64,000 bases of DNA from contig NZ_CP117425.1 of NCBI RefSeq assembly GCF_030687295.1, positions 1,182,001 through 1,246,000 on the forward strand, given 5' to 3'. The stretch's first letter is position 1; each line of letters opens with the position of its first letter. Below, piece by piece: positions 20,486 through 53,116 of the stretch. The notes under the pieces are model-generated. The model ran no database searches. It had not been told where the DNA came from and saw nothing but the letters and a program-made list of their open reading frames with translations. Source of the stretch: Pseudomonas beijingensis (GTDB taxonomy: Bacteria > Pseudomonadota > Gammaproteobacteria > Pseudomonadales > Pseudomonadaceae). A program made the position numbers and the translations under genes.

Positions 20486-20843
20486 TGAAGACTCTCCGGG
20501 TGCCACGCTCAGTAGACTTCCATGGACCCGGCGGCTTGTAGGCAGCAGCGGTCTGGACGTTTATGTTCACAAAGTAAGGTTATTTGACGCTTTTTGATGT
20601 CAATATTTTGGCTGCGTTTTTCCGAATATTTTGTTTGTGCCAAACTATTGACCTTCTGCCGGCCATCCTAAACAATCGCCGCCGTAATGTCACATTGATA
20701 TTTAAGCGGCGACCTGTTCTTTCAGTGCGTGTTCCAGCTCCTGTTTTGAACTTTCCGACATACGGTCATTCCGGTTGCCATCATCCGATGCAGCGCCACG
20801 TTTCGCTGTGATTCAAGACAAGAGTTCTGGGAATAATCCAACC
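20486..20843. other. Divergent promoter region of lapA and lapE
   Basis: 358 bp between the two divergent starts. It is AT-rich (GTCAATATTTTGGCTG, TTTTTCCGAATATTTTGTTTG) and has no supported gene; openings inside it are short and lack coding character. It must hold the promoters for the adhesin and for the secretion genes. I cannot assign specific boxes with confidence. Confidence 0.6.
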
Positions 20844-35641: not shown

Positions 35642-36418
35642 ATGCGGCGTTTGAGTAGTTGGGTTGTGGGATTGGCCTTCATCACGTGCGGAGTTCAGGC
35701 GCAAACGCCGGCTTCCGACGATCCGTTGCTGGAGAGCAACATCTCGGCCAATGCCTCGGGCAGCGAGGCGCGTGGGGTGCTTCGGGCGCGGGATCAGGCC
35801 GTGCTGGCCAGTGAGTTGGCAGGGCGGATTGTCGAGTTGCCGTTCAGTGAGGGCGAGTCGTTCAAGAAGGGCGACACCCTGGCGCGTTTCGATTGTTCGG
35901 CCTATCAGGCCCAGCTCAATGCGGCCCAGGCGGCCAGCCGTGGTGCCAGTGAAGAGCTGGCCCATAACCGGCAGTTGGCGGCGTTGAAATCCGTTGGGCG
36001 TTTCGAGGTGTCGCGGGCCGAGGCGCGGCTCAGCGAAGCCCAGGCGCAGTCCCAGGTGTATCAGGTTCAGGTCAAGCGCTGCAGCGTGATCGCCCCGTTC
36101 GACGGGCAGGTGGTGGCGCGCAAGGTCCAGCGTTATGAAAGCGTGGCGGCCGGCGCGCCGTTGCTGGACGTGGTCGACAACCGCACCCTGGAGATTCACC
36201 TGCTGGTGCCCTCACGCTGGATGGACAGGCTCAAGCCCGGCCAGCCCTTTACCTTCGTCCCCGATGAAACCGGCAAGCCGTTGCAAGCGACGGTCAAGCG
36301 CCTGGGGGCGCGCATCGACGAGGGTAGCCAGACCCTGCTGCTGGTGGCGAGCGTGCCGGATGCCTCTGGCTTGTTGTCCGGCATGAGCGGCACGGCGCGT
36401 TTTTCGGAGTCGAAGTGA
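35642..36418 (+). CDS. Periplasmic adaptor (RND/HlyD type)
   Basis: 258 aa with signal peptide MRRLSSWVVGLAFITCGVQA. The lipoyl halves (LASELAGRIVELPFSEGESF; CSVIAPFDGQVVARKVQRYE) flank a short coiled-coil (AQLNAAQAASRGASEELAHN), followed by a beta-barrel. It is small for an RND adaptor and has no RND pump beside it. Instead it overlaps the next gene, a membrane HlyD protein, by GTGA. It is likely one of three adaptors of the exporter proposed for the DUF4347 protein downstream. Confidence 0.85.
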   Translation: MRRLSSWVVGLAFITCGVQAQTPASDDPLLESNISANASGSEARGVLRARDQAVLASELAGRIVELPFSEGESFKKGDTLARFDCSAYQAQLNAAQAASRGASEELAHNRQLAALKSVGRFEVSRAEARLSEAQAQSQVYQVQVKRCSVIAPFDGQVVARKVQRYESVAAGAPLLDVVDNRTLEIHLLVPSRWMDRLKPGQPFTFVPDETGKPLQATVKRLGARIDEGSQTLLLVASVPDASGLLSGMSGTARFSESK

Positions 36419-37734
36419 ACGCGCCGATAACGGGTAACGCCGAGCAGGTGTTTGCCCGCTTCCTTGACCTGGAGCGCCAGACGCGGGCCGCACGTACGCC
36501 GGCGCAATTGAGCTATAGCCTGGTCAACGACGGCCAGGCCTTGTTCGGGTTTCGCCACGCCGCGTTGTTGATTGCTGGCAAGGTCCAGGCCGTGACCGGC
36601 GTCAGTACCGTGGAGCCGAATGCGCCGTTCGTGGCGTTTGTCGAGCAGGCGGTGGCGCAACTGTTCAAGCAGGGCCTGTTGAATCAAGCTCGGGTGATTG
36701 CCGCCGATCTTGTGAGCGAATCCATCCGGGCAGACTGGCGCAGCCTGTCGGCCGGGCAGGTGTTCTGGCTGCCGCTGATCGATCATCAGAGCCAGGTGTT
36801 CGGCGGGTTGTGGTTGGCCCGCGACCTGCCATGGACCCCGCCCGAACAAGTGCTGCTGTCGCAATTGGGCGACACCTACAGCCACGCCTGGCTGGCGCTG
36901 CAACCGCGCAAGCCGTGGCGCTTGCGCTGGACGCGCAAGCGCCAGGTCGCCCTAGTGGCGGTGTTGCTGCTGGGCTTGCTGATCCCTGTGCGCCAGTCCG
37001 TATTGGCCCCGGCCGAAGTGGTGCCGTTGGGCGGGCAGGTGGTGGCGGCGCCGTTGGATGGGGTGATCGCCGAGTTCCTGGTCAAGCCCAACCAGGCCGT
37101 CAAGAACGGCGACCTGCTGCTGCGTTTCGAAAGCACCAACCTCAAGGCCCAGGCCGATGTGGCCGAGCGGGCGTTGGGCGTGGCCGAGGCCGAACTCAAG
37201 GCGAATTCCCAGCGCTCGTTTGCCGACGCTGAATCCAGCTCGAAGATTGACCTGCTGGCCGCCCGCGTCGAACAGAAACGCGCCGAGCGCAACTACGCGC
37301 TTGAACTGCTCAAGCGCAGCGAAGTACGCGCCGAGCGGGACGGCATCGCAGTGTTCGCCGACGCCGAGCGTTGGCTCGGCAAGCCGGTGCAGACCGGCGA
37401 ACGATTGATGGAAATCGCCGATCCGAACCAGGCCGAGTTGCGCATTGAATTGGCGGTGGGCGACGCGATTGCCTTGGAGCCTGGCGCGCAGGTGGCGTTG
37501 TTTCTCGACAGCGACCCGTTGCAGCGCCACCTGGCCTGGCTCGAGCGCTCGGCCTATGAAGCGCAGCCTACCGCCGCCGGGCAACTGGCGTATCGGTTGG
37601 ATGCGCGTTTCGATGCCACGGCGCCGCGCATTGGCCTGCGGGGCACGGCGAAGGTCTTCGGCGACCGCGCGCCGCTGGCGTTGTACTTGTTGCGTCGGCC
37701 CCTGGCCGGGCTGCGCCAGAGCGTCGGCCTGTAG
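36415..37734 (+). CDS. HlyD-family membrane adaptor with N-terminal cytoplasmic GAF-like domain
   Basis: 439 aa from GTG 36415, overlapping the previous stop. Residues 1-175 are a soluble, GAF-like domain (LSYSLVNDGQALFGFRHAAL; FWLPLIDHQSQVFGGLWLAR). A single TM follows near 182-195 (VALVAVLLLGLLIPV), then the HlyD lipoyl and coiled-coil part (VVAAPLDGVIAEFLVKPNQA; KRAERNYALELLKRSEVRAE). A cytoplasmic sensor-like domain on an adaptor is unusual and could couple export to a cytoplasmic signal. Followed by the M50 gene at 37736 with 1 bp between them. Confidence 0.8.
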   Translation: MNAPITGNAEQVFARFLDLERQTRAARTPAQLSYSLVNDGQALFGFRHAALLIAGKVQAVTGVSTVEPNAPFVAFVEQAVAQLFKQGLLNQARVIAADLVSESIRADWRSLSAGQVFWLPLIDHQSQVFGGLWLARDLPWTPPEQVLLSQLGDTYSHAWLALQPRKPWRLRWTRKRQVALVAVLLLGLLIPVRQSVLAPAEVVPLGGQVVAAPLDGVIAEFLVKPNQAVKNGDLLLRFESTNLKAQADVAERALGVAEAELKANSQRSFADAESSSKIDLLAARVEQKRAERNYALELLKRSEVRAERDGIAVFADAERWLGKPVQTGERLMEIADPNQAELRIELAVGDAIALEPGAQVALFLDSDPLQRHLAWLERSAYEAQPTAAGQLAYRLDARFDATAPRIGLRGTAKVFGDRAPLALYLLRRPLAGLRQSVGL

Positions 37735-37735
37735 C

Positions 37736-39832
37736 ATGGACCTGCCGAGCCTGCGGCCAGACCTGCAATTGTCCCCAGCGGCACCGGACCCGGACGGTTC
37801 ACCGCAATGGACCTTGGCCGACCCGGTGCGCGGGCGCTATTTCAAGCTTGGCGCGGCGGCGATGCGCATGTTGCGGCATTGGTCCCTGGGCGATCCGGAA
37901 CAGGTGCTGCAGGCCGCGAACCGTGAGCCGGGCCTGCCACTCAACGGTGAATCGCTGGAGCAACTGCTGGGCTTCTTGCGCGGCCATGATCTGATCAGCG
38001 CGATGGACCCGCAACAGCGCGACAGTTACCTCTTCAAGACCGCCGCACAGCGCCAGAGCCTGTGGCAGATCCTGCTGCATCAATACCTGTTTTTTCGCAT
38101 TCCGCTGTGGCGCCCGGACGCTTTTCTCAACCGGGCCTGGCCCTGGTTGGCGCGGTTCGGCCCCAGGATTCTGCGCTATGGCCTGCCGCTGACCCTGGGC
38201 CTCGGCATCTTCCTGGTGTCGCGGGACTGGCAGCGCTTCATCGCGACGTTTCCGCACCTGTTCAGCCTGGGCGGTGCGCTGGCGTTCGGGGCGGCGTTGC
38301 TCTTCGCCAAGTTGTGCCACGAATTCGGCCATGCCTTCATGGCCAAGCGCGCCGGTTGTCGTGTGCAAAGCATGGGCGTGGCGTTCATGGTGCTGTTGCC
38401 GATGTTCTACACCGACGTCAGCGACGCCTGGCGTATCAACGATCGCCGCGCACGGTTGTTGATTGGTGCCGGTGGAGTCCTGGCCGAATTGCTGCTGGCG
38501 TGCATCGCGCTGCTGGCCTGGTCGCTGCTGCCCGACGGGCCGGCACGCACCGCGGCGTTCATGCTGGCCAGCGCCACCTGGATCACCACGTTGATCATCA
38601 ACCTGAACCCCTTCATGCGTTTTGACGGGTATTTCCTGCTCAGCGATTTCTGGGCGGTGGATAACCTTCAGGGGCGTGCGTTCGCCCTGTGCCGCTGGCG
38701 CCTGCGCGAAGCCTTGTTCGGTTATGGCGCGGCGGCACCGGAACCCTGGTCGCCGAAGATGCGCCGCCGTTTGCTGGTGTGGGGATACGGCTCCTGGCTG
38801 TGGCGGGCGCTGTTGTTTTTCGGGATTGCCCTGGCGGTCTATCACCTGTTCTTCAAGGTGTTGGGCATTTTTCTGATGATGGTGGAATTGGTGTGGTTCA
38901 TTTTTATGCCCATCGTGAATGAGTGGCGGCAATGGTGGAGCCGCCGTGAGCAAGCCCACGGTGGGCGGATGCTCCTGAGCGGCCTGGTGTTGATGGCGTT
39001 GCTGTTGGCGTTGCTGTTGCCCTGGCGCAGCGCGGTGGAAGTACCGGCGATGCTCGAAGCCGGGCGGGCCAGTGCCTTGCATGCGCCGGTGGCGGCACGG
39101 GTCAAGCAGGTGAATGTGCGCGACGGCCAGACCGTGGCCCAGGGCGACGTGTTGATCGAGCTGGAGTCTCCAGACATGGCCTCGCGCCTGGCCATCGTGC
39201 GCCGGGAAATCCAGATCCAACAGTTGCAGATGCGCCGTCAGGCCGGGCGCAGTGAAACCGCCGCCGATGCCGGCATCGTCGAACAGCAACTGGCCGAAGC
39301 GGTGGCCGAGTACCGGGGCCTGGTGGCCCAGCGTGAACGCCTGTTGTTGCGTGCGCCCCATGCTGGCCAGGTGCGCGACTTGTTGCCGCAACTGTCGGTA
39401 GGTCGCTGGCTGTCACCGACCCAGGCGTTGGCGCGGGTGGTGCAGACCGATTCACGCTTGCGCGGGTACCTCACCGAAGCCGAGCTTTGGCGGGTCGAGC
39501 CGGGTGCCACGGGGCGGTTCATCGCTGACGATCCGATGCACACGTCGATTGCCGTGCAGTTGAATGAAATCGACACCAACGGCGTGGCCTGGGTCGAACA
39601 GCAAGCGTTGACGTCCGACCATCACGGGCCGATTGCGGTGCGCCGCGATTCGCAGCAGCGGGCCGAGCCGGTGCAGGCCCAATACGGCGTGCGCCTGAGT
39701 GCAGTGGACGACATGTCCGCCCCGGTGCAGCCGCTGCGTGGCGTGGCGGTGTTGCAGGGCAAGGGCGAGTCGGTGTTGGGAGCGGCCTGGCGGCGGTTGG
39801 CGGCGCTGGGTGTCAGGGAAAGCGGGTTCTAG
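37736..39832 (+). CDS. M50 site-2 protease-type membrane protein fused to a HlyD-like adaptor
   Basis: 698 aa from ATG 37736. The N-terminal ~130 residues are soluble. The membrane part has the zinc motif HEFGH (195-199) and the second motif LNPFMRFDG (Asn291, Asp297). After TM helices (LLSGLVLMALLLALLLPW) the C-terminus is a HlyD-like lipoyl/coiled-coil module (LHAPVAARVKQVNVRDGQTV; LLRAPHAGQVRDLLPQLSVG). Both active-site motifs are intact, so it may be a working intramembrane protease. Proteins of this type occur with HlyD adaptors in export loci. Here they stand in place of an ABC transporter. Third gene of the adaptor operon. Confidence 0.85.
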   Translation: MDLPSLRPDLQLSPAAPDPDGSPQWTLADPVRGRYFKLGAAAMRMLRHWSLGDPEQVLQAANREPGLPLNGESLEQLLGFLRGHDLISAMDPQQRDSYLFKTAAQRQSLWQILLHQYLFFRIPLWRPDAFLNRAWPWLARFGPRILRYGLPLTLGLGIFLVSRDWQRFIATFPHLFSLGGALAFGAALLFAKLCHEFGHAFMAKRAGCRVQSMGVAFMVLLPMFYTDVSDAWRINDRRARLLIGAGGVLAELLLACIALLAWSLLPDGPARTAAFMLASATWITTLIINLNPFMRFDGYFLLSDFWAVDNLQGRAFALCRWRLREALFGYGAAAPEPWSPKMRRRLLVWGYGSWLWRALLFFGIALAVYHLFFKVLGIFLMMVELVWFIFMPIVNEWRQWWSRREQAHGGRMLLSGLVLMALLLALLLPWRSAVEVPAMLEAGRASALHAPVAARVKQVNVRDGQTVAQGDVLIELESPDMASRLAIVRREIQIQQLQMRRQAGRSETAADAGIVEQQLAEAVAEYRGLVAQRERLLLRAPHAGQVRDLLPQLSVGRWLSPTQALARVVQTDSRLRGYLTEAELWRVEPGATGRFIADDPMHTSIAVQLNEIDTNGVAWVEQQALTSDHHGPIAVRRDSQQRAEPVQAQYGVRLSAVDDMSAPVQPLRGVAVLQGKGESVLGAAWRRLAALGVRESGF

Positions 39833-39847
39833 TTCTAGGGAGCGAGC

Positions 39848-40339
39848 ATGGATTCAGTGGCGGCAGAGGGATTGGTGGTGCGTCCATCGCGGGTCAGCGA
39901 TGGGCCGTTCTTGCAGGGCCTTTACCAGGCGGCACGGCCGGATCTGCAATGGATCGACGGCGAGCACGAGCAAGTGCAGCAGGTGATTGCCCAGCAGTTC
40001 CAGGTGCAGGAGCAAGGGCTGGGCGAGAACTTTCCCAACGCCATGCATTACGTCGTGGAAAAACTCGGCACCGCGATCGGCGCGTTGAGCACGGATTTCG
40101 GGCCCAATGAAATCCGCGTGCTGTACCTGGCCTTCATCCCCCAGGCCCGAGGGCAGGGCTATGGCCGGGCGGTGTTGCAAGGGGTACAGAAAGCCGCGCA
40201 ACAGATCCGTTGCCCGGTGGCGACCGTGGTCTGGGCCAGCAACCCCCATGCACGCCGGCACTACCTGGCGCTGGGTTTCGAGGTGCAGGAAAGCAACCCG
40301 GCGGCGGAGAGATTGGTCTGGTATCCGAAAGGCAACTGA
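39848..40339 (+). CDS. GNAT-family N-acetyltransferase
   Basis: 163 aa. The acetyl-CoA motif A is visible (YLAFIPQARGQGYGRAVLQG), with the motif B region ASNPHARRHYLALGFEVQES. It starts 15 bp after the M50-HlyD gene with an AGGGAGCGAGC ribosome site, so it is probably the last gene of that operon. It may acetylate a component or substrate of the export system; that is inference from position only. Confidence 0.85.
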   Translation: MDSVAAEGLVVRPSRVSDGPFLQGLYQAARPDLQWIDGEHEQVQQVIAQQFQVQEQGLGENFPNAMHYVVEKLGTAIGALSTDFGPNEIRVLYLAFIPQARGQGYGRAVLQGVQKAAQQIRCPVATVVWASNPHARRHYLALGFEVQESNPAAERLVWYPKGN

Positions 40340-40349
40340 GTGATCCCTC

Positions 40350-40442
40350 TGTGGGAGCGAGCTTGCTCGCGATGGCGTCAGCCCGGACCACAGGTTCCCG
40401 GGTGGATGGAGGATTGCCATCGCGAGCAAGCTCGCTCCCACA
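40350..40442. repeat. REPIN (GTGGGAGCGAGC family)
   Basis: Inverted pair between the convergent GNAT and DUF6916 genes. Confidence 0.92.
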
Positions 40443-40458
40443 AGGGCCTCATCAGTCT

Positions 40459-40770
40459 TTAGTTGAATGCGATGTAGAAATACCCCAGCGCCGGATCCCG
40501 TCCCATGGGCGGTATCCGCGACACGAACACCCCCTCGAGCTTGCCCAGTTCCGGCACTTCCAACCCACAGAGCCCATCCACGAACGCGGTGCTTTCCAGG
40601 CTGTTGAATTCCACGCTGAAGGGCATGCGTTCGGTGTTTGGCAGCTTTGACCGAGGTGTTTCTTCAAGGGTTTCGAAACGCACCGGCAGGCGGCTGCCGT
40701 CGGGCAGGGTCAGGCTGCCGGTCTGGCCCAGCAGCGGTTGGAAATGGCGGCTATGAACCTGTTGCAGCAT
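40459..40770 (-). CDS. DUF6916-family small protein
   Basis: 103 aa, MLQQVHSRHFQPLLGQTGSL. The pattern FQPLLGQ...LPVRFETLEE...FSVEFNSLE...GYFYIAFN fits DUF6916, a family usually found beside tail-collar (microcystin-dependent) proteins, as here. It is 46 bp after the collar gene on the same strand. Function unknown. Confidence 0.7.
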   Translation of the reverse strand: MLQQVHSRHFQPLLGQTGSLTLPDGSRLPVRFETLEETPRSKLPNTERMPFSVEFNSLESTAFVDGLCGLEVPELGKLEGVFVSRIPPMGRDPALGYFYIAFN

Positions 40771-40816
40771 GTCGACACTCCAAAAGGCCGGAGGACCGCA
40801 GCCCTCCGGCGGTTCA

Positions 40817-41404
40817 TCAGTTGCGGGATGGGAAATAGCCTTGAAGGGCGATGCTGAAGTTGATCGCCAGGAACGGGTTCATGATCGCCATCGGCATGCC
40901 GCCGCCCGTGGGGGAGACCGTGCCGTTGACGGTGGTGGTGACGCCTTGCAACGACACCGGCGAGGCGCCTATCTGGTCGGAATAGATATTCGCCGCGCCC
41001 GGCCCGGTGCCCGAGGTGCCGATGAACGAGTTGGTGGCCGTCGGCGTATTCACCGGGTTGCTGGCCGGGTTGGCCAACTGCAGGGTGGTCGAGGCGGTGA
41101 TGCCGGTGAGGGCATGGGTGTGGTTGGGCAGGTTGTTGAGCGTTGCTGTGACGTTTTCGGTGCCGGAGATTTCTCCGATGACACGCTGGGTCAGGCCCAG
41201 GCCATTGCCTTGGCCCAAGGGCAGGCGACCTTGCAGGTTGGGCAGCATGAAGGTGGTCTGGCCATTGCCTCCGTACGTTATGCCGATCAGGGCGAACAGG
41301 GTCTGGTATTGGGAAAGGGAAAGCGTCTGCCCGTTGCACAACGCCCAATTACTGGGTGCAAAGCTAAAGGCGAATGACTGGATAGTGCCGATGAATACTT
41401 CCAT
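40817..41404 (-). CDS. Phage tail-collar domain protein (MdpB-like)
   Basis: 195 aa from ATG 41404 (MEVFIGTIQSFAFSFAPSNW). The tail-collar domain signature is clear: WALCNGQTLSLSQYQTLFAL, IGITYGGNGQTTFMLPNLQG and RLPLGQGNG. A longer in-frame opening to 41500 is not supported. No other phage gene is near, so this is a free-standing 'microcystin-dependent protein' type member. Its position between the adaptor operon and the DUF4347 substrate suggests a surface or export link, which is inference. Confidence 0.85.
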   Translation of the reverse strand: MEVFIGTIQSFAFSFAPSNWALCNGQTLSLSQYQTLFALIGITYGGNGQTTFMLPNLQGRLPLGQGNGLGLTQRVIGEISGTENVTATLNNLPNHTHALTGITASTTLQLANPASNPVNTPTATNSFIGTSGTGPGAANIYSDQIGASPVSLQGVTTTVNGTVSPTGGGMPMAIMNPFLAINFSIALQGYFPSRN

Positions 41405-41706
41405 AGATTCCTCATCCTTCAGGTGATTGGTCTTGCAGTGCCCGGACGTGAAGGACAAGAGTGCGATCAGCCCGACTCCTTTATTCCCTGGCCTGGTCAC
41501 GCACGGCTGAGCGTAGACCGGGATTTTTGATTCTGCCGAGCGAGACGGGAGGAAAAATATCGCGAATCGGCTTAATCGATTCAGGTTCGCATGGCACCTA
41601 TACCGTCCATCTTTTTTACGGATTTGGATGGATTTGATATCAAAGTACTACTAGTCGCCGATTATTTCCTCGGCTACGCTTGCGTAACAAAAGGACTACA
41701 AACAAG
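41405..41706. other. Divergent control region between collar and sulfotransferase genes
   Basis: 302 bp, AT-rich toward the right (TTTTTTACGGATTTGGATGG, TTTGATATCAAAG, ACTACTAGTC). It holds short palindromes (TTTGATATCAAA at 41633-41644) but no gene. Likely contains the promoters of both flanking genes. Confidence 0.55.
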
Positions 41707-42552
41707 GTGAATGGATTGCCGCAGTTTCACTTTATCTCCGGTTTACCGCGCTCGGGCTCGACCCTGCTTTCTGCCATTTTGCTGCAGAACCCGCGCTTCC
41801 ATGCCGGCATGACCAGCCCCGTCGGTTCGCTGTTCAGCAGCGTCCTGCAGCAGTGCAGTGCCGGCAGTGAGTTCGGCTCGGTGATCGACACCGACCTGCG
41901 TCGCCGCCTGCTGCGCGGCCTCTTCGATTCCTACTACGCCGACAAAGCCGATAAACCGGTCATCTTCGACACCAACCGCCAATGGTGCGCGCGCCTGCCT
42001 GCCCTGCAGGACCTGTTCCCCCAAGCCAAGACCATCGCTTGCGTGCGCAACGTGGCCTGGGTGCTCGACAGCCTGGAGCGGCTCTATCGTGCCAACCCGT
42101 TCGAGAACACCAAGCTGTTCAATGACGATGATGAGCGCAATACCGTCTACAGCCGCTGTGAAACCCTGGCCCAGCGCAACCGCCTGGTGGGGTTCGCCTG
42201 GACGGCGCTCAAAGAGGCCTATTACGGTGAGAACGCCGAGTCGCTGCTGATCGTTGATTACGATTTGTTGAGCCAGGCCCCGGAGCGGGTGATGCGTCTG
42301 GTGTACGAATTCATCGGCGAGCCCTGGTTCGAACATGACTTCAATCACTTGACCTATGACGCCCCGGCCTTCGACCAGGCCCTGGGCGTTGCCGGCTTGC
42401 ACAAGGTCAAGCCCAAGGTCGCGCCGCAAGCCCGGCGGACCCTGCTGCCGCCGGATCTGTTTGAAAAATATGCCGAGTTGTCGTTCTGGCGCGATGGGTC
42501 CGCAAGCGCCGCCAATGTCATTCGTATGAAAACCGACGCCGCGGTCAGCTGA
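41707..42552 (+). CDS. Sulfotransferase-family protein
   Basis: About 281 aa from GTG 41707 (MNGLPQFHFISGLPRSGSTL); a TTG at 41680 is an alternative. The PAPS 5'-phosphosulfate loop ISGLPRSGSTLLSAILLQNP is intact, and a second region KTIACVRNVAWVLDSLERLY corresponds to the 3'-phosphate site. The family transfers sulfate from PAPS to sugars, peptides (tyrosine) or small molecules. It lies directly before the giant DUF4347 adhesin gene, with a terminator between, and a second sulfotransferase-like gene closes the cluster. Modification of the adhesin or of a surface glycan is a reasonable guess. Confidence 0.85.
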   Translation: MNGLPQFHFISGLPRSGSTLLSAILLQNPRFHAGMTSPVGSLFSSVLQQCSAGSEFGSVIDTDLRRRLLRGLFDSYYADKADKPVIFDTNRQWCARLPALQDLFPQAKTIACVRNVAWVLDSLERLYRANPFENTKLFNDDDERNTVYSRCETLAQRNRLVGFAWTALKEAYYGENAESLLIVDYDLLSQAPERVMRLVYEFIGEPWFEHDFNHLTYDAPAFDQALGVAGLHKVKPKVAPQARRTLLPPDLFEKYAELSFWRDGSASAANVIRMKTDAAVS

Positions 42553-42565
42553 CTCGCGGTTTTTT
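42538..42565 (+). terminator. Rho-independent terminator after sulfotransferase gene
   Basis: CCGCG...CGCGG stem with a GTCAGCTGAC loop core, followed by TTTTTT. The left arm lies in the last codons of the sulfotransferase gene. Confidence 0.65.
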
Positions 42566-42603
42566 CATTTGCGTGTTTAAAAGTTCGAGTCCAGGTGATC
42601 GTC

Positions 42604-45600
42604 ATGTGGTGGAGCAAAGGCAAATCGCGGGTAACCGAGGGCACACAGGCCCTGGCATCGCCAATGATCATGTCCCTGGAGCCGCGAATGCTGTTCGACG
42701 GCGCGGTGGCCGCAACCGTGGCCGATGCCGCGCAACCGGATGCCCAGCCGTCTGCCGAGGCGGCCAAGACGCCCACGGCGGACCAGCCGACCGACACGCA
42801 TGCGCCCCAGGGCCAAGTCGATGCCACCCAGGCTGCCGTGCCGGGCAAGGCCGTGGTGTTTGTCGATTCCCGGGTCAAGGATTCCGCCAATCTGCTCGAA
42901 GGCGTGGCGCCTGGTACCCAGGTGGTGCAACTGGATGCGAACAAGGACGGCTTGCAGCAGATCGCCGATTACCTGGACACCCACCAGGGCATCAGTTCGG
43001 TGCAGATCATCGCCCACGGTAACGCCGGCGATCTGTGGTTGGGCAACAGCTACCTGTCGGCGGACAACGTCCAGGCCCGCAGTGAAGTGCTGGCGCAGAT
43101 CGGCCAGGACATGAACGCCGGCGGCGATATCCTGATCTATGGCTGCTACACCGCCGAAGGCGAGCGCGGCCTGAGCCTGGTCGATTCATTGGCGCAGTTG
43201 ACTGGCCGCGACGTGGCGGCGTCCACCGACCGCACCGGCCTGGGCGGCGACTGGGACCTGGAAATCGCCACCGGCAACATCGAAAGTGCCAACGTGCTCT
43301 CGGCCACTGCCATGAGCGAGTACCAATGGGGCCTGGCTACCTGGACCGCTACCAACAACCTCAATTCGGGTATCGGTTCCTTGCGCGCCGCCCTGGACTC
43401 GGCGCAGAACGGCGACATTGTCACCTTCAATACCAGCATGACCGTCGCGCTGACCCAGGTGTTGGACGTCAATAGAAACGTCACCATCGATGGTGATCTC
43501 AACAACGATAACGTCGCCGATGTCACCCTCGACGGGCAATATCGCACCCAGATCATCAACGTGACGGCCGGCACCACCGCTACCCTCGATGGTCTGGTGA
43601 TTACTCGCGGCATGGTGGCGGGTAACGGCGGTAATGGCGGCGACGATGCGCTGGTGTCAAAGGGGGGCGGGATCTATAACGCCGGCACCTTGACCCTGAG
43701 GAACGTCACCGTCACCGCGAACGCCGCTTCGGGTGGTGGTGGCGGTGGTGGTGTCACGCCGCAATACGCCGGTGGCGGTGGTGGCGGCGGTGGTGCGATC
43801 ACTGGCGGTACCGGCGGCAAGGGCGGCGACACCCTCAATGCCACGGGCTCCGACGGCTCGGCCGGCCAAGGCGGCGCCGGGGGTGGCTTCTTCAACATGG
43901 GCGGGCGTGGCGGTTCCTCCACCGGCGGGGCTGGCGGTTCCGCATATCCGGGCTACAGCACTGGCTCCGCGGGCGGCACGGCCTCCAGCGGTGGGCTATC
44001 CATCGGTGGCGGTGGCGGTGGTGACGGCTATAACGATATTGGCGGCGCCGGTGGCGGAGCAGTCGGTGGTATCTATAACGATACCGGCGCGACCCTGCGA
44101 ATCATCGGCAACTCGGTCATTTCCAACAACGTCGGTGCAGGTGGCGGCGGTGGTGGCGGTGGTGCCGGTGGTGGCTACAACCACACGGGCGGTGCCGGCG
44201 GCGTCGGTGTCGGGGCCATCTGGAACAAAGGCTCGATCCTGATCACCGCCGCCAACTTCGCCGCCCTGGCCGGCAACGTCGGTGGCAGCGGCGTGGGTGG
44301 CACCAGTGCGGGTACTGCTGGCGTTTCACCGGCGTCGGTGGCCAACGTCTACGGTGACGGCGGCACCATCAACACCAACTATGTGCCGGACGAGACACCG
44401 CCGACCGCGACTGTCGTGGTGGCCAACACCAACCTGAACTCCGGTGGCACGTCGCTGGTGACCATCACCTTCTCCGAGGCCGTGACCGGTCTCACCGCGG
44501 CGGACCTGACGGTGCAGAACGGCACCATCGGCGTCTTGACCAGTGGCGACGGCGGCATCACCTGGACCGGTACGTTGACCGCGGCCAGCAACATCGCCGA
44601 CACCACCAAACATCATCACCCTGAACAACACCGGCGTTGCCGACCTGGCCGGCAATGCCGGCGTGGGCACCACCGACTCGAACAATTACATCGTCAACGA
44701 CACCGTGGCGCCCACGGCGTCCATCGTGGTCAGCGACACCGCCCTCAGGGTCGGTGAAACCTCGGTGGTGACCATCACCTTCAGCGAAGCGGTGAGCGGT
44801 TTCACTGCCGCCGACCTGACCGTCGCCAACGGCTCGATCAGCGGCCTGAGTTCCAGCGACGGCGGCATCACCTGGACGGCCACCCTGACGCCGGATGCGG
44901 CGATTTCCGATACCTCCAATCTCATTGTCCTGAATAACACCGGCGTGGCGGACCTCAACGGCAACGCCGGCGTGGGGACGACCAACTCCAACAACTACGC
45001 TATCGACACCCTGCGTCCGACCGCCACGATCGTGGTCGCTGATACCGCGTTGAGAGTCGGCGAAACGTCGCTGGTGACCATCACTTTCAACGAAGCGGTG
45101 AGCGGTTTCACCACCGCCGACCTGACGGTCGCCAACGGTACGGTCACCGGGCTGAGCAGCAGCGACGGCGGTATCACCTGGACCGGAACGCTGACCCCGA
45201 GCGCCAGCGTCAGCGACACCAGCAACCTGATCACACTGGCTAATACCGGTATTGCTGACTTGTCCGGAAACACCGGCACCGGTACCACCGACTCGAACAA
45301 CTACGCGATCGATACGCTACGCCCGACCGCCACCATCGTGGTGGCCGATACCGCGCTGAACATCGGTGAAACGTCCCTGGTCACGATCACCTTCAGCGAG
45401 GCCGTCACGGGCTTCACCCTGGCGGACCTGACCGTTGCCAACGGCTCCTTGAGCGGGTTGAGCAGCAGCGACGGCGGCATCACCTGGACCGCGACGCTCA
45501 CCCCGAGCGCCAGCATCACCGATGCCACCAACCTGATCATCCTGGCCAATACCGGTGTGACGGACGCGGCCGGTAACACCGGCAGCGGCACCACCAGCTC

Positions 45601-48600
45601 CAACAACTACGCGGTCGACACCCAGCGTCCGACCGCGACTATCGTCGTGGCCGACAATGCGTTGAGCGTTGGCGAAACTTCGTTGGTGACCATCACCTTC
45701 AACGAAGCGGTGACGGGCTTTACCACCGCCGACCTGACGGTCGCCAACGGCACGGTCACTGGCCTGAGCAGCGGCGACGGCGGCATTACCTGGACCGGCA
45801 CGCTCACGCCAAGTGCCAGCACCAGCGATACCAGCAACCTCATCACCCTGGATAACACCGGCGTGACTGACGCGGCGGGCAACGCCGGCAGCGGCACCAC
45901 CGACTCCAACAACTACGCCATCGACACCGCGCGCCCAACCGCCACCATCGTGGTCGCCGATACGGCCATCGCCGTGGGCGAAACCTCCGTGGTGACCATT
46001 ACCTTCAGCGAGGCCGTGACCGGCTTCACCCTGGCCGACCTGACCGTGGCCAACGGCAGCCTGAGCGGCCTGAGCACCAGCGACAACATCACCTACACCG
46101 CGACCTTCACCCCGAGTGCCGGTATCTCCGATGCCACCAACCTGATCACGCTCAATAACACGGGCGTGGTGGATGGCGCGGGCAATACCGGCAGCGGTAC
46201 CACCGATTCCAACAACTACGTCGTCGACACCCTGCGCCCGACCGCCACCATCGTGGTCGCCGATACGGCCCTGAGCGTCGGCGAAACGTCGCTGGTGACC
46301 ATCACTTTCTCCGAAGCGGTGACAGGTTTCGACAATTCGGACCTGAGCGTCGCCAACGGTACGCTGAGTGCGGTCAGCAGCAGTGATGGCGGGCTCACCT
46401 GGACGGCCACGTTCACGCCGGCCCTCGGGGTGACCGACACGTCCAACGTCATCACCCTGAACAACACCGGCGTCAGTGATGCGGCGGGCAACACGGGTAC
46501 CGGCACCACCAACTCCAACAACTATCAGGTCGATACCAACGTACCGACGGCGACCATCGTGATTGCCGATACCACGCTGAGCATCGGTGAGACCTCGTTG
46601 GTCACCGTGACCTTCAACTCGGCGGTCAGCGGGTTCGACAATGCGGACCTGACCGTCAGCAACGGCACGCTCAGTACCATGAGCAGCACCGACGGCGGGG
46701 TCACCTGGACGGCCACCTTCACGCCGAGCGCGAGCATTTCCGATACCAGCAACGTGATCACCCTGGACAACACCGGCTTGATCAACGCTTCGGGTAACGC
46801 CGGCGTCGGCACCACCGATTCGAACAACTACGTCGTCGACACCGTGCGTCCAACCGCGACCATCGTTGTGGCCGACACCGCCATTGCCGCCGGCGAAACT
46901 TCGGTGGTGACCATCACCTTCAGCGAGGCCGTGACCGCGTTCACCAGTGCCGACCTGACGGTCGCCAACGGCGTGATCTCGGGGCTGAGCAGCAGCGACG
47001 GCGGCATCACCTGGACCGCGACTTTCACACCGACCGCTGGCATCAGCGACACCAGCAATGTCATCTCGCTCAACAGCGGTGGCATCGTTGACTTGGCGGG
47101 CAACGTCAACGTTGGCGCCACCGATTCGAACAACTATGCCATCGACACCGTGCGCCCAACGGCGACCATCGTCATGGCCGACTCCAGCCTCAGTGTCGGC
47201 GAAACCTCGTTGGTGACCATCACCTTCAGCGAGGCAGTGACCGGTTTCACCAACGCTGACCTGAGCGTGGCCAACGGCACCCTGAGCGCTGTCAGCAGCA
47301 GCGATGGCGGCCTGACCTGGACGGCGACCTTCACGCCGACCCTCGGCGTGCGGGATACGTCCAACCTGATCGTCCTGGACAACACCGGCGTCAGCGATGC
47401 GGCGGGTAATACCGGCACCGGCACGACCAATTCGGCCAACTACGCCATCGACACCCAGGTGCCAACGGCGACCATCGTGGTGGCCGATACCGCCCTGAGC
47501 ATCGGTGAAACCAGCCTGGTGACCATCACCTTCAATGAAGCAGTGAGCGGTTTCGACAACAGCGACCTGACCATCAGCAACGGCACGCTGAGCAACGTGT
47601 CGTCCTCCGACGGCGGCGTTACCTGGACGGCCACGTTCACCCCGAGCGCGAGCATTGCCGATACCAGCAACCTGATCACCCTGGACAATACCGGTGTCGT
47701 CAACGTCTCGGGCAACGCCGGCGTCGGCAGCACCGATTCGAACAACTATGCCATCGACACCGTGCGCCCAACGGCAACCATCGTCGTCGCCGACACGGCC
47801 ATTGCCGCGGGCGAGACGTCGCTGGTGACCATCACCTTCAACGAGGCCGTGACCGGCTTCACCGCCGCCGACCTGACCGTCGCCAACGGCACCCTCAGCG
47901 GCTTGAGCAGCAGTGACGGCGGCATCACCTGGACCGCGACCTTCACGCCTGCCGCTGGCATCACCGACACCAGCAATGTCATCACCCTCGCCAACGGCGG
48001 CGTCGCCGACCTGGCGGGTAACGCCGGTAGCGGCAGCACCGATTCGAACAACTACAGCGTCGACAGCCAGCGTCCGACCGCCACCATCGTGCTGAGCGAT
48101 TCGGTGTTGAAACCGGGTGAAACCGCCCAGGTGACCATCACCTTCAGCGAAGCGGTGACCGGCTTCAGCAACGCTGACCTGAGCGTGGCCAACGGCACCC
48201 TGAGTGCCGTCAGCAGCAGCGATGGCGGCCTGACCTGGACCGCGACCTTCACCCCGACCCAGGGCGTGACCGATGTCACCAACCTGATCACCCTGGACAA
48301 CACCGGGGTCAGCGACGCGGCCGGCAATACCGGGACAGGCACCACCGATTCGGCCAATTACGCGGTCGAAACGCAGGTCCCGACTGCCACGATCGTGGTG
48401 GCCGATAACGCACTCAAGGTGGGGGAAACCTCGCTGGTGACCATTACCTTCTCGGAAGCGGTCAGCGGTTTCGACAACAGCGATCTGACCATCAGCAACG
48501 GCACGCTGAGCAACGTTTCTTCTTCCGACGGCGGCGTTACCTGGACGGCCACCTTCACCCCGACGGCCAGCATCACCGACACCAGCAACCTGATCAGCCT

Positions 48601-49834
48601 GGACACCAGTGGCGTGGTCAACGCCTCGGGCAACAGTGGCGTCGGCGTGGTGAACTCCAACAACTACGCGATCGACACGGTTCGCCCGGGCGCCACCATC
48701 ACCGTGGGCGACACTTCCCTGGGCATCGGCCAGAGCACCACCGTGACCATCAGCTTCACCGAGGCGGTGTCCGGTTTCGACTTGTCGGACCTCAGTGTCG
48801 CCAATGGCGTGTTGTCCAACCTCGCCAGCAGTGACGGCGGCCTGACCTGGACGGCGACCCTGACGCCAACTGCGGGCGTGACCGACGCCACCAACCTGAT
48901 CCTGCTCGACGCCAGCACCGTGCAGGACCTGGCCGGCAACGCTGGAGTGGGCATCGCGATTTCCGCCAACTACGCACTCGACGCCAACCGGCCGACGGCA
49001 ACCATCGTGGTTGCCGATCCGAACCTGACGGTGGGCGAGACGACCCAGGTGACCTTCACCTTCAGCGAAGCGGTGACGGATTTTGACCTGTCGGACCTCA
49101 GCGTCACCAACGGCGAACTGACCAATCTGACCACCAGCGATGGCGGCAGGACCTGGACGGCCACGTTCACACCAACGGTAAACCTCACCGACCCGAGCAA
49201 CTTCATCGCCCTGGACACCAGCAACGTCAGCGACCTGACAGGCAACGCCGGGGCCAGCGTGGCGGTGTCCAACAACTATGCGATCGACACCGTGGTGCCC
49301 AACGATGTGAAGCCGCCGCCGGAATTCCTGACGTCGGACCCGGTCACGGTTATCCCGCCGTCCGAGGTGCCGTTGCAGCCGATCGTTTTCATACCGCCAA
49401 CGGGCGATCTTGGCTCGCCGCTGGGCTTCCCTCCACTGTTTGAACAGCGGGATGTGGGCGGTGGTCTTCGGCCGATAGGGGACATTTTCATCAACCGCGG
49501 CGAATTGGCGCCGAGCTATATCGCGCAAGTATTCAGCAGCGACGCTGCTGGCGATGGCTCCGGCCAGGGCTTCCTGGGCTTTGGTGGTGGTGATGGCGGG
49601 GTGTTTGGCAGCAGCACGGTCTCGGGCCTGTTCAACCGCGACACCGGTTCCGAAAGTGAATCGATGGACGCTTTTGGCAGTCAGTCGATGCAGGGCGGCG
49701 ATGGCGCCCGCGGGTTGTTCGGCGCACCAACTCTGGGCCAGCAACTGCAACAACTCAAGGACACGGAGCAGCGTCAGGTCAATAGCCTGGCAATGGCTTT
49801 ACAACAGGTCGGCATCAGCCAAGTGCAGGCCTGA
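42604..49834 (+). CDS. Giant LEPR/DUF4347 surface protein with 16 Ig-like repeats (one frameshift)
   Basis: About 2,410 aa from ATG 42604 (AGGTGA upstream); GTG 42595 is an alternative. Residues 25-34 read LEPRMLFDGA, the N-terminal motif of this class of exported proteins; no Sec signal is seen. A DUF4347 domain follows (AVVFVDSRVKDSANLLEGVA; VQIIAHGNAGDLWLGNSY; DILIYGCYTAEG). Next come a Gly-rich, beta-helix-like segment (GGGGGGVTPQYAGGGGGGGG) and sixteen 101-103-aa Ig-like repeats. The C-terminus ends GLFGAPTLGQQLQQLKDTEQ... without RTX repeats or a LapA-type signal. One extra A near 44610 (CCAAACATC) breaks the frame inside the first repeat; restoring ACCAACATC rejoins it. Followed by a TolC-like gene and preceded by adaptor genes that probably export it. 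Confidence 0.88.
44380..49275 (+). repeat. Sixteen tandem ~306-bp Ig-like coding repeats
   Basis: Units of 101-103 codons with the core TATIVVADTAL, GETSLVTITFNEAV, FT..DLTVANG and SSSDGGITWTATFTPSA, ending GTTDSNNYAIDT. They match the bacterial Ig-like Big_12 type. The units are more diverged from each other than the lapA repeats, apart from alternating subtypes (NADLSVANGTLSAVSSSDGG versus NSDLTISNGTLSNVSSSDGG). Confidence 0.88.
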
Positions 49835-49874
49835 ACTCTAAAAAATATTGGGGCAGCCAGGGGCAATCCAGGGA

Positions 49875-51389
49875 ATGAATAGAAGTCAGAAGTTATTCGG
49901 TATGAGTGTGCTGGCGTTGGTGGTCAGTGGATGTGCGGTCACCAGCGATCCGATCGAGCGTAGCGTCAGCGAACAGCGCGCTCGCACGGATCTGCAGAAC
50001 ATGTACAAGGATCAGGAGCCCTTGAGCGGCCCACTGACCCTGCACCAGGCCATGGCCCGGGCGGTGAAGTACAACCTCGAAGGCCGCTTGAAGATCATGG
50101 AGGAAGCCCTGGCCAAGCGTCAGCTGGACCTGGCCAGTTTCGACATGCTGCCGCGCATGGCCCTGGACGCCGGTTATGTGGGCCGCAACAACGTCAGTGC
50201 CTCCAGCAGCCAGAGTGTGGAAACCGGTACCCAGTCCCTGGAGCCGTCGACCTCCCAGGACCGCGACCGTGAGGTGGCGGACCTGACCATGGTCTGGAAC
50301 GTGCTCGATTTCGGCGTGAGCTACATTAGCGCCAAGCAGGCCGGGGACCAGCGCCTGATCGTGCAGGAACGCCGGCGCAAGGTGATCAACACCATCGTCC
50401 AGGACGTGCGTTCGGCCTACTGGCGCGCCATGGCCGCCGAGCGCCTGCTCAAGCAGATCGACAGCCTGATGGCCCGGGTCGAGGCGGCGCGTGACAACAG
50501 CCAGAGCATGAGCGAACAACGCATCGGTGACCCGGTACAGGCCTTGGGTTACCAGCGTTCGCTGATCCAGGCCACCCGCCAACTGGAAGAGCAACGCCGG
50601 GCGCTGTCCCTGGCCAAGACCGAACTGGCGACCCTGATCAACTTGCCCTTGGGCACCGAGCTGACCCTGGCGACCCAGGATGAATACACCATCCCGGAAC
50701 TCAAGGTCGACCTGGCCCGTCTGGAACAGGAAGCCCTGGCCAGCCGTCCGGAACTGCGTGAGCAGGATTACCAGACCCGCATCACCGCCGCCGAAACCCG
50801 CAAGGCCATGTTGCGCCTGCTGCCGGGGCTGGAGTTTTCCGCCGGCGGGCATTACGACAGTAACTCGTTCCTGGTGGAACAGGGCTGGGCCGACTATGGC
50901 GTGAAAGTCACCTGGAACCTGTTCAACGTGATCTCCGCCCCGGCGGCCATCGACGTGGCCAAGGCCGGGGAAGAAGTGGCGGCGGCGCGGCGCCAGGCGA
51001 TGTCGATTGCCGTGCTGGCGCAGCTGTACGTCGCCAACGCGAACTATCGCGAAGCGCTGCGCCAGTTCAAGACCAGCCAGCAACTGTCGGACATCGACGG
51101 GCAGATTGTCGGCCAACTGCGCAGCCGTCACCAGGCTGCCGGCATCGGTGAGCTGGACCTGATCCAGGGTGAACTCAATACTCTGCAGGCCGATCTGCGC
51201 CGTGACCTGGCCTACGCCGACCTGCGCAACGCCTACGGGCAGATCTTTGCCAGCGCCGGCCTCGACCCGCTGCCAAACGAAGTGCAATCGACCGAAGTCC
51301 AGTCGATTGCCACGGCGCTGGCCAACCGCGAAGCGGCCTGGGCCCAGGGCGATATCGCGTTGCCGAAGCCTGCCACGGTGACGCAATAA
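49875..51389 (+). CDS. TolC-family outer-membrane lipoprotein
   Basis: 504 aa from ATG 49875 (MNRSQKLFGMSVLALVVSGC); the lipobox VSGC gives a predicted lipid anchor at Cys20. The two TolC repeat halves are visible (LTLHQAMARAVKYNLEGRLK; ALASRPELREQDYQTRITAA), with coiled-coils between. It starts 40 bp after the DUF4347 gene. It is distinct from LapE, which has its own locus, so a separate outer-membrane channel serves this cluster. Confidence 0.88.
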   Translation: MNRSQKLFGMSVLALVVSGCAVTSDPIERSVSEQRARTDLQNMYKDQEPLSGPLTLHQAMARAVKYNLEGRLKIMEEALAKRQLDLASFDMLPRMALDAGYVGRNNVSASSSQSVETGTQSLEPSTSQDRDREVADLTMVWNVLDFGVSYISAKQAGDQRLIVQERRRKVINTIVQDVRSAYWRAMAAERLLKQIDSLMARVEAARDNSQSMSEQRIGDPVQALGYQRSLIQATRQLEEQRRALSLAKTELATLINLPLGTELTLATQDEYTIPELKVDLARLEQEALASRPELREQDYQTRITAAETRKAMLRLLPGLEFSAGGHYDSNSFLVEQGWADYGVKVTWNLFNVISAPAAIDVAKAGEEVAAARRQAMSIAVLAQLYVANANYREALRQFKTSQQLSDIDGQIVGQLRSRHQAAGIGELDLIQGELNTLQADLRRDLAYADLRNAYGQIFASAGLDPLPNEVQSTEVQSIATALANREAAWAQGDIALPKPATVTQ

Positions 51390-51401
51390 CCGGGCGCAAC
51401 C

Positions 51402-52187
51402 ATGACGCGCCCGGCGTTTTCCCGGCTGCCGGTGACGGTGAACCTGCCGCTGCTGTTGCAGGCACTGGCGGCCATTGAAGACGCGCGCTGGCAGGGGCAT
51501 TTCAACAGCGCCTATCACAGCGGCGACTGGAGCGGCGTGGCGCTGATTTCGGCGACCGACGCCGTCACCGAGCTGTCGCCCGGGCGCGGTCAGCCACGGC
51601 AGCGTGCACCTTGGTCAGCGGATGGCCGTTGGCATGAGGCATTGCGCGACTGGCCCCTGGAGATCGTCTCGGCCCGGCTGCTGCGGCTGGGGCCCGGCGG
51701 GTGCATCCACGAGCATCGCGACTATGACCTGGGCGGGCCGGACGCCGATCTGCGCCTGCACGTTCCGCTGCTAAGCCCACCTGGCGTGGACTTCTTCCTG
51801 GATGGACAAATCATTCCGATGACGGCCGGTGAGTGCTGGTTTCTCGACCTGGCGCGGCCCCATCGAGTGGTTAACCGAAGTGCGCATTCGCGGGTTCACC
51901 TGGTGCTCGACTGTCGCCCCGGGCCGTGGCTGGTCCGGCAGATTGCCGATGGGCTGCCCACCACACCCGACGCGGGCGTCAGGCAAAGCGACTTCGCTCT
52001 TTTTCAGCTGCGCGTGGAAAGCGATCCTGACCTCGCCCGCACCTTGCAGAGCCTGCACGACCTCGACGCTTTCATGGCGTCCACCCTGGCGTTGGGGGCC
52101 GAACGAGGGCTTCATTTCACCCAGGAAGAATTGCGGGCCGCCATGCGCAACGGTCGCCAGCAGTGGAGAGCCCAGTGGAAGACCTGA
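51402..52187 (+). CDS. Aspartyl/asparaginyl beta-hydroxylase-like 2-oxoglutarate oxygenase
   Basis: 261 aa. Iron ligands are visible in the HxD motif HEHRDYD (first His and Asp) and in the downstream His of LARPHRVVNRS, with the 2-oxoglutarate Arg in SRVHLVLDCRP. The family hydroxylates Asp/Asn side chains, classically in EGF- or Ig-like repeat proteins. Here it follows the TolC gene by 12 bp and overlaps the next gene. The Asn/Asp-rich Ig-like repeats of the neighbouring giant protein are an obvious candidate substrate. That link is inference. Confidence 0.8.
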   Translation: MTRPAFSRLPVTVNLPLLLQALAAIEDARWQGHFNSAYHSGDWSGVALISATDAVTELSPGRGQPRQRAPWSADGRWHEALRDWPLEIVSARLLRLGPGGCIHEHRDYDLGGPDADLRLHVPLLSPPGVDFFLDGQIIPMTAGECWFLDLARPHRVVNRSAHSRVHLVLDCRPGPWLVRQIADGLPTTPDAGVRQSDFALFQLRVESDPDLARTLQSLHDLDAFMASTLALGAERGLHFTQEELRAAMRNGRQQWRAQWKT

Positions 52188-53116
52188 ACCTGCACGGTTG
52201 GCTGCCGATCCGCCTATGGCAAGAGGCCGGGCAGTGGCGGGTCGACTGGTGCTGGTTCGGCGACGCGCGACTGTCACAGCCGTTCTTTGGCGACTCCGTG
52301 GAAGACGCCTTGCGCCGGCCCTTCAACCAGGCGTTCCGCCGCCAGACGCCCTTGGACGCACTCGGTCAGTGGCAACGGCAAAGCCCGGGCCTTGGGCCCA
52401 GTGCATTCATCTGCCATGCCTCCCGTTGCGGTTCGACCTTGATCAGCCAGATGCTCGCCCAGTTGGACGACCATATCGTCATCTCGGAACCACCGCCCCT
52501 GGATGCGCTGCTGCGCAGTGAGCTGCCGCCGGCCGAGCGGTCTGCGGCACTCAAGGGCTTGATGTCGGCCTACGGGCAGCGCCGCCGAGGCGTGGAGCAA
52601 CGCCTGGTGGTCAAACTCGACGCCTGGAACATTGGTGAGCTGCCGCTGCTGCGTGAGTGTTTTCCCGACACGCCCTGGTTGTTCGTCTATCGCGATCCCT
52701 TGGAAATCGCCGTTTCTCACCTGCGTCGTCCCGGCATGCACATGGTGCCGGGGATGATCGGGACGACTGTCCTGGACGATGGGTTGCCATTTGGCAGCCA
52801 GGAAGATTTCATCCCGCGCCGGGTGGGGCGGTTGTTGGCGACGGGCTTGGAACACTGCCAGGCATTGTCTGGCGTGGCGGTCAACTACAGCGAACTGCCC
52901 GAGGCGATGACAGGCAGGTTGGCAGCGTTTTTCGGGCTCGATGATGAGCAATGCGGGCAAGTGTTCGCGACGGTGGGGCAGCATGCCAAGCAGCCGGCGC
53001 AGGCGTTTGTTGGCGACAGCGAGGACAAGCGCCGGGAGGCTTCGGCGTTGTTGCGTGAGCGGGTCATGCGCTGGGCGCAGGGGCCCTATGAAGCGTTGAC
53101 GTCACTGCCGCTGTAG
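52163..53116 (+). CDS. Second sulfotransferase-like P-loop protein
   Basis: 317 aa. Starts at GTG 52163, or more likely GTG 52175 (MEDLNLHGWL), which has GGAGAG upstream. Either start overlaps the hydroxylase gene. The loop FICHASRCGSTLISQMLAQL matches the sulfotransferase PAPS site, though 'RCGST' differs from the usual 'RSGST'. A second motif is DTPWLFVYRDPLEIAVSHLR. A kinase-like activity cannot be excluded. Last gene of the cluster before a REPIN. Confidence 0.75.
   Translation: MESPVEDLNLHGWLPIRLWQEAGQWRVDWCWFGDARLSQPFFGDSVEDALRRPFNQAFRRQTPLDALGQWQRQSPGLGPSAFICHASRCGSTLISQMLAQLDDHIVISEPPPLDALLRSELPPAERSAALKGLMSAYGQRRRGVEQRLVVKLDAWNIGELPLLRECFPDTPWLFVYRDPLEIAVSHLRRPGMHMVPGMIGTTVLDDGLPFGSQEDFIPRRVGRLLATGLEHCQALSGVAVNYSELPEAMTGRLAAFFGLDDEQCGQVFATVGQHAKQPAQAFVGDSEDKRREASALLRERVMRWAQGPYEALTSLPL

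Follow-up and report, generated by a model that had tools for sequence, protein, structure and literature searches.

A conserved TolC, HlyD and M50 gene set inherited with giant LE-x-R leader proteins: a candidate envelope conduit in Pseudomonas beijingensis and its relatives

The closest described counterpart of the system considered here is the locus of Kamneva, Poudel and Ward (2015), which encodes GAF-HlyD, M50-HlyD and HlyD proteins, sometimes an OEP protein, and a secondary SecA_DEAD protein, with no ATP-binding cassette (ABC) transporter; secretion was proposed, with M50 as the pore, and the role was called 'completely unknown' (PMC4452313). We found no substrate named for the SecA_DEAD locus in that paper, and neither LEPR nor DUF4347 appears in its main text. 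In the 64,000-nucleotide stretch of P. beijingensis DNA analysed here (the window; NZ_CP117425.1, positions 1,182,001 to 1,246,000), a block at 35642..53116 likewise joins M50-HlyD, HlyD and a membrane adaptor in one locus without an ABC transporter, the GAF part going undetected. It differs from the printed locus in that the window has no secondary SecA and its M50-HlyD protein falls in a sister clade. To judge from the main text, the machine is already in print in its SecA-bearing form (PMC4452313); what is new here is a client, a leader and a SecA-less clade.

Type I secretion systems (LapEBC, HlyBD-TolC) share with the block HlyD adaptors, a TolC-type channel and a giant repeat client, but the block has no ABC ATPase and its client would carry an N-terminal leader rather than a C-terminal signal. 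The giant protein of the window also carries, just over cut-off, the domain of LEPR-XLL proteins (NF012209, LEPR-8K). We found no paper assigning these proteins an exporter or linking them to an M50-HlyD machine, in a search outside which subscription journals and preprints lay. Partial matches over the M50 region recall the intramembrane metalloproteases of ribosomally synthesised and post-translationally modified peptides (RiPPs; daptide, NF041824, and YydH/LiaK, NF058609), from which the window protein is set apart by its fused HlyD domain, its giant-protein neighbour and scores below the curated cut-offs.

By sequence, the conserved unit comprises a TolC-type lipoprotein, a soluble HlyD adaptor, a membrane HlyD adaptor, a PqqD-like/M50/HlyD fusion (M50-HlyD below) and a giant protein with an N-terminal LE-x-R leader. 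Its parts lie in the window as follows.

35642..36418, plus strand: soluble periplasmic HlyD/RND-type adaptor with a signal-peptide-like N-terminus (HlyD_3 69.6 bits; TIGR01730 138.7 bits)
36415..37734, plus strand: membrane HlyD adaptor, with an N-terminal domain, one transmembrane segment at about residues 178-196 and a HlyD domain
37736..39832, plus strand: putative PqqD-like N-terminal domain, M50 (site-2-protease type) membrane domain and HlyD domain, 698 aa (Peptidase_M50 33.4 bits, HlyD_3 38 bits)
42604..44757, plus strand: giant surface protein, 5' open frame, with leader, DUF4347, Gly-rich part and first Big_12 repeats (DUF4347 181 bits, Big_12 78.8 bits)
42676..42704, plus strand: leader motif LEPRMLFDGA (DNA pattern match; NCBIfam NF012209 LEPR-8K, 17.1 bits, cut-off 17)
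42853..43329, plus strand: DUF4347 domain (Pfam)
44663..49834, plus strand: giant surface protein, 3' open frame in another reading frame, with 15 Big_12 stretches and a C-terminal tail
49848..51389, plus strand: TolC-family outer-membrane channel with a lipobox/lipoprotein-like N-terminus (OEP 141 bits; first in-frame ATG 49875)

The unit is real and widely conserved, and export of the giant appears the best available reading of it. We hold it moderately likely that the gene products form a dedicated, leader-guided conduit across the envelope, resembling type I secretion, for giant surface proteins with an N-terminal LE-x-R leader. If true, this adds an N-terminal-leader route for very large Gram-negative surface proteins and gives the LEPR-XLL giants an exporter, and the locus described as of 'completely unknown' role in 2015 (PMC4452313) gains a candidate substrate, a candidate signal in the LE-x-R leader and a candidate reader in the PqqD-like domain.

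Their distribution shows that machine and leader-bearing giant are inherited together. Among the 25 same-genus genomes of a first sample, a full-length or nearly full-length M50-HlyD protein is present in 18 and DUF4347 over cut-off in 17, all inside the 18. Among 199 genus genomes (M50-HlyD at E<=1e-80, DUF4347 at E<=1e-10) the former is found in 88 and the latter in 84, with both in 83, DUF4347 alone in one (G467, a partial domain), M50-HlyD alone in five and neither in 110 (Fisher p ~1e-48, uncorrected for kinship). M50-HlyD and the DUF4347 or leader-bearing giants co-occur beyond chance, and the co-occurrence across genomes on which a preliminary description of this DNA had staked its export reading held strongly (83 of the 84 DUF4347 genomes). 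M50-HlyD lies within 30 kb of 87 of the 95 DUF4347 places, one extra partial row of G422, inside an already counted open reading frame (ORF), having been left out of the counts. The remaining eight are that of G467, one 112 kb from M50 and six on contigs without an M50 match. Copies of M50 and DUF4347 are equal in G436 (three and three) and G531 (two and two), unequal in G511 (three and two) and G515 (two and one), and LE-x-R giants are likewise reached from a second M50 locus in each of G008 and G010. Each of the five M50-only genomes (G024, G431, G452, G545 and G552) has a LEPR-start giant without a DUF4347 match beside the core, and it is therefore the leader, not DUF4347, that we take as the machine's partner, DUF4347 being rejected as its defining mark. 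The client had been put forward as a giant DUF4347 protein; the giant is indeed linked to the machine, and the LE-x-R leader replaces DUF4347 in its definition.

The association extends to the class. Among 369 evenly drawn genomes, M50-HlyD is found in 57 (profile A1, E<=1e-30). A strict DNA pattern for the leader matched in nine genomes and its reversed control in none; a wider pattern matched in 28, its reversed control in two. Reading the matches in their ORF context left 21 genomes in which LEPR comes early in a protein that is large or cut by an edge; G077, G247, G389 and G390 were dropped as not LEPR, and G202, G250 and G274 because their motif does not open a large protein. M50-HlyD is present in 20 of these 21 genomes versus 37 of the 348 others (Fisher p 4e-17); motif and M50 lie within 20 kb on one contig in 12 of the 20, some 46 kb apart in one and on different contigs in seven.

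A scan of species genomes gave named relatives, of which we took the best 80 of at least 593 (52 Pseudomonadaceae and 28 others). They span Pseudomonas, Stutzerimonas, Kosakonia, Pectobacterium, a Pantoea, Azospirillum, Niveispirillum, Nitrospira, a Nitrosomonas and others. Family hidden Markov models, built without L041 (masked bases) and L050 (distant), recover M50-HlyD at >=100 bits in every one of the 80 stretches, the membrane adaptor in 78 of them and the soluble adaptor in 77. TolC falls inside 28, its gene lying beyond the giant in Pseudomonas. In 60 stretches the leader stands on a giant or large protein. The other 20 comprise 11 in which the giant is cut by the left edge and five that end before it (16 without a giant start in view), L236 and L248 with no giant, L234, which is decayed, and L228, whose giant lies downstream with a Sec-like start. 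An all-against-all comparison of ORFs of >=90 aa across 30 lineage groups, with 25 clusters listed, gave as widest the HlyD-type proteins (29 groups), TolC (19) and the giants (eight). Next in width are two sets: one covers seven groups and has an antisense-looking example, the other covers five and includes ABC ATPase-like proteins at varied places. Apart from the antisense-looking set, the core genes are the sole wide recurrence.

Among the named loci the leader has the general form LE-x-R-hydrophobic-hydrophobic-x-D/S, and its L, E, R and D are invariant in an alignment of 24 giants. The LEPR-8K model, which the window giant passes by a slight margin, scores 20.8 bits in the giant of G015 and 21.1 in that of G024. 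LE-x-R also starts shorter proteins, LEKRIVLDGA in G343 (L120, 1,371 aa) and LEQRVVLDAA in G149 (L126, 843 aa), both in stretches that also hold TolC and M50-HlyD. At the other end, many giants share an F/L-x-x-Q-L...L-x-x-A-L tail; those of Nitrospira and Nitrosomonas have no such tail. The DUF4347 domain has an invariant His-Gly and Cys (24 aligned sequences, A4), which recalls caspase-type cysteine proteases, and self-processing by this domain is possible. Searched against solved structures, its profile found one DUF4347 chain (PDB 9qpe chain G, E 0.001), the rest being unrelated or designed proteins; with the invariant His-Gly and Cys as its sole basis, a caspase-like identity is no more than a possibility.

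The single 2,410-aa LEPR/DUF4347 frame of the preliminary description is absent from the assembly. The giant gene is spread over two reading frames, with ORFs at 42595-44757 (720 aa; first in-frame ATG 42604) and 44663-49834 (1,723 aa) and the break near 44.6 kb. The 3' piece aligns separately to the P. thivervalensis protein of L169, which is longer. In a sample of 38 relatives, the open frame around DUF4347 measures 734 aa in the window, whereas across the 17 other genomes with a match over cut-off it ranges from 1,351 to 6,121 aa, the shortest running into a contig end. Some other genomes have short frames too, such as G510 with 536 aa (contig end not checked). The lapA-type adhesin gene on the minus strand seems likewise split, into two ORFs with LapA domains, at 12098-20506 and 9549-12101, and perhaps a third with RTX at 8086-9357, which favours an assembly error or a shared instability of repeat genes as the cause of the break in the giant.

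What would drive export is the question raised by the SecA-less clade. Among the block proteins scanned, Pfam matched no ABC or RND (resistance-nodulation-division) family, as the preliminary description had stated, and the comparison of loci likewise revealed no such gene as a constant neighbour. BLAST (E<=1e-8) with LapB, SecA and RND references over the 80 stretches found no SecA and one RND match. LapB-like matches occurred in 18 stretches: in 14 from the fluorescent group the match is an ATPase of about 300 aa encoded well upstream, in three it is LapB itself, and one lies in L248. As far as these searches reach, the locus has no constant ABC, RND or SecA neighbour in the window's clade. 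Each of the 25 same-genus genomes has one SecA_DEAD protein over cut-off, the housekeeping one, and no dedicated second copy; in eight of them a second match of about 20 bits falls under the cut-off of 24.6. Genome G000 has a single match, in a 940-aa frame far from the window, and no secondary SecA.

Outside the genus the picture divides. Of the 38 class genomes with a best M50 score of <=361 bits, 22 have a clear second SecA, which in 19 of these lies about 1 kb or less from M50-HlyD; the other 16 have no clear one, G097 having a weak one. In the 19 class genomes at >=429 bits no second SecA is tied to the high-scoring locus in any; among them G340 has a second SecA beside an extra low-scoring copy and G272 has no SecA match at all. 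Two partial matches on separate contigs of G137 were taken as fragments of its housekeeping copy. In a tree of 43 M50-HlyD proteins, a division with 100/100 support separates a clade of 15 from one of 28, and the window belongs to the 28. Of the 15, 13 come from genomes with a second SecA and two from genomes without, and none of the 28 has a linked SecA, the label of five named loci resting on the fetched stretch alone. As the sister-clade loci L127, L128 and L130 also adjoin giants, of LEPRxLLSAD form, machine and leader probably predate the SecA difference. The dedicated SecA-like ATPase encoded elsewhere that had been suggested as a target of search was looked for and not found in the window's clade, with none over cut-off in the 25 genus genomes and none tied to the 19 high-scoring loci, and we discard it as the energy source.

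The hallmark of site-2 (M50) proteases is the pair of motifs HExxH and NxxPxxxxDG in membrane segments. The window protein has HEFGH and NxxPxxxxDG, intact as first described, and the residues of both motifs are invariant in 36 of 36 aligned proteins (A2); the M50 region also matches the site-2 protease structure 3b4r (E 5e-4). By motif, then, the M50 domain is predicted to be of the site-2-protease type. For the N-terminal domain, a PqqD-like identity is suggested indirectly, through relatives. Sister-clade N-termini score 30.3 (above), 14.9 and 15.6 bits against the PqqD cut-off of 23.4, and the protein of G027 scores 20.4. Profile comparison by hhalign gave 96% for window clade against sister clade, 90% for sister clade against PqqD (a set of 16 of 24 sequences) and 81% for the pooled N-termini against PqqD, versus 0.2% for the membrane adaptor against PqqD as control. 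PqqD-type domains bind the leader peptides of RiPP precursors. Kinship with RiPP metalloproteases, as in the match of the M50 region and its upstream part to daptide_HExxH (NF041824; 150.5 bits, cut-off 300) and of the M50 region to YydH/LiaK (NF058609; 29 bits, cut-off 225), could together with the PqqD-like domain mean that a small peptide or ligand is what the core exports or matures, the giant being a mere neighbouring anchor. We think this very improbable: the core pairs with leader-bearing giants, and no small precursor gene recurs across lineages among the ORFs of >=90 aa compared, a limit that shorter precursors would escape.

In the leader-guided conduit that we favour, the cytosolic PqqD-like domain would bind the LE-x-R leader as PqqD-type domains bind RiPP leaders, the M50 membrane domain would cut the leader or gate entry, and the three HlyD modules would span the periplasm to the TolC-type lipoprotein, the giant leaving as an unfolded chain that folds outside. 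The sister clade would probably power export by its secondary SecA, and the SecA-less clade would most likely borrow housekeeping SecA or another general energy source, which is the least certain step. A bolder form of the proposal is possible, if rather doubtful: a separate secretion class, in which a RiPP-like LE-x-R leader would be read by the PqqD-like/M50/HlyD fusion with no dedicated ATPase, the drive coming from the proton gradient, from proteolysis of the leader together with folding outside, or from a borrowed SecA bypassing SecYEG. On this view one ancient machine, spread from Pseudomonas to Nitrospira, would exist in two forms that differ in energy supply, the SecA-bearing and the SecA-less clade.

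Several observations weigh against the leader-guided conduit. The genomes are related, and the p-values overstate their independence. G160, an assembly in 470 contigs, has the leader without an M50 match, and the Sec-like start of the L228 giant near the core counts against exclusivity. The window's own copy of the giant has the broken frame, and a LEPR-XLL protein from Vibrio, some 8,000 aa long, is described with a C-terminal RTX region (PMC10868602). Pfam finds no PqqD (PF05402) at E<=10 in the N-termini of the window's M50-HlyD and two others, nor in the whole window-clade proteins L229, L243 and L247, and a direct Pfam assignment for the window protein was given up on that ground; hhalign run directly against a partly faulty PqqD set also gave no match. 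Finally, the leader is mildly hydrophobic. Its best 12-residue mean hydropathy is 1.62 in the window and 0.92-1.71 in 59 leaders, on a par with the start of the DUF4347 giant of G030 (1.46), which was judged Sec-like by eye and has no LEPR in its first 130 residues, in the sole first-sample genome with DUF4347 but without M50-HlyD.

Mild hydrophobicity of this kind would suit passage of the giant across the inner membrane through the ordinary Sec translocon, the four-gene core then doing no more than cutting the leader and carrying the protein from the periplasm through TolC. The coreless G030 giant points the same way, as do the housekeeping SecA_DEAD protein in each of the 25 same-genus genomes and the existence of a SecA-bearing sister clade. 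We nevertheless regard this route as rather unlikely. The signal peptides of the soluble adaptor (2.13) and TolC (2.38) exceed the leaders in hydrophobicity, the leaders hold a conserved charged LE-x-R core, which is unlike a Sec signal, and the PqqD-like domain is expected to act in the cytosol. A scan for 19-residue transmembrane segments was dropped as an argument against a Sec signal in the leader, since the soluble adaptor's signal peptide escaped it too.

About 10 kb from the block lies a LapEBC set, with its LapB-type ABC gene at about 22287-24371 (TIGR03375, 970 bits), and near this set and lapA the window encodes a LapD-like protein (4656-6602; LapD_MoxY_N, HAMP, GGDEF and EAL). The proximity of LapEBC raises the alternative that an ABC type I system elsewhere, this or another, exports the giant, with the core as a processing or retention module. 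A LapB relative within the stretch in three of the 52 Pseudomonadaceae loci and the RTX end of the Vibrio protein (PMC10868602) speak for it as well. It is nonetheless improbable in our estimate, as the core has its own TolC and adaptors, Pfam finds no RTX in either piece of the window's giant, and a search covering LapB-type ABC proteins found none at E<=1e-100 in 11 of 34 genomes with the system and none over the family cut-off in 16. Two of the 11, G199 and G156, are rated 100% complete. These 11 genomes show that LapEBC is not a general requirement, and its action in trans as such was rejected; the system is separable from LapEBC, as the preliminary description had held in calling the two distinct.

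The block holds six further genes.

39848..40339, plus strand: GNAT acetyltransferase, accessory (Pfam)
40459..40770, minus strand: DUF6916 protein, accessory (PF21880, 37.4 bits)
40817..41404, minus strand: phage tail-collar domain protein, accessory (PF07484, 92.8 bits)
41680..42552, plus strand: sulfotransferase-like protein, accessory (Sulfotransfer_3, 56.6 bits)
51402..52187, plus strand: Asp/Asn hydroxylase-like protein with a weak Nif11-like C-terminus, accessory (PF05118, 52.6 bits)
52163..53116, plus strand: second sulfotransferase-like protein, accessory (Sulfotransfer_3, 28.6 bits)

The families first listed for the block are thus present, with the differences that the giant is split, the DUF6916 and tail-collar genes lie on the minus strand and no GAF is seen. 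The membrane adaptor at 36415-37734, initially called GAF-HlyD, has its HlyD domain and transmembrane segment, and no GAF match by Pfam at E<=10; its family profile gave one weak sensor-kinase match among solved structures (E 0.33), and the GAF identity was abandoned. Nor do the genes once grouped with export as a modification system belong to the widely conserved unit, being lineage-limited among the 80 related loci. GNAT (37 of 52 Pseudomonadaceae stretches), DUF6916 (33 of 52) and the first sulfotransferase (34 of 52) are each found in none of the 28 others, and the tail-collar gene is found in 44 of 52, in six of seven enterobacterial/MFB021 stretches and in none of 21 distant ones. The hydroxylase-like and second sulfotransferase genes are each seen in five of 52, most stretches ending before the gene's position. 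GNAT, DUF6916 and both sulfotransferases are confined to Pseudomonadaceae among the 80.

In G030 a sulfotransferase of the same family (51% identity; L053, 10738-11574) lies beside the DUF4347 giant with the machine absent, and the sulfotransferase may act on the giant, not on export. The Nif11-like end of the hydroxylase-like protein (22.7 bits, below the cut-off of 23.8) sits near the PqqD-like machine; Nif11 domains are known from RiPP leaders. Between the GNAT and DUF6916 genes, at 40340-40460, is an inverted GC-rich repeat, which we take to resemble a Pseudomonas REP element.

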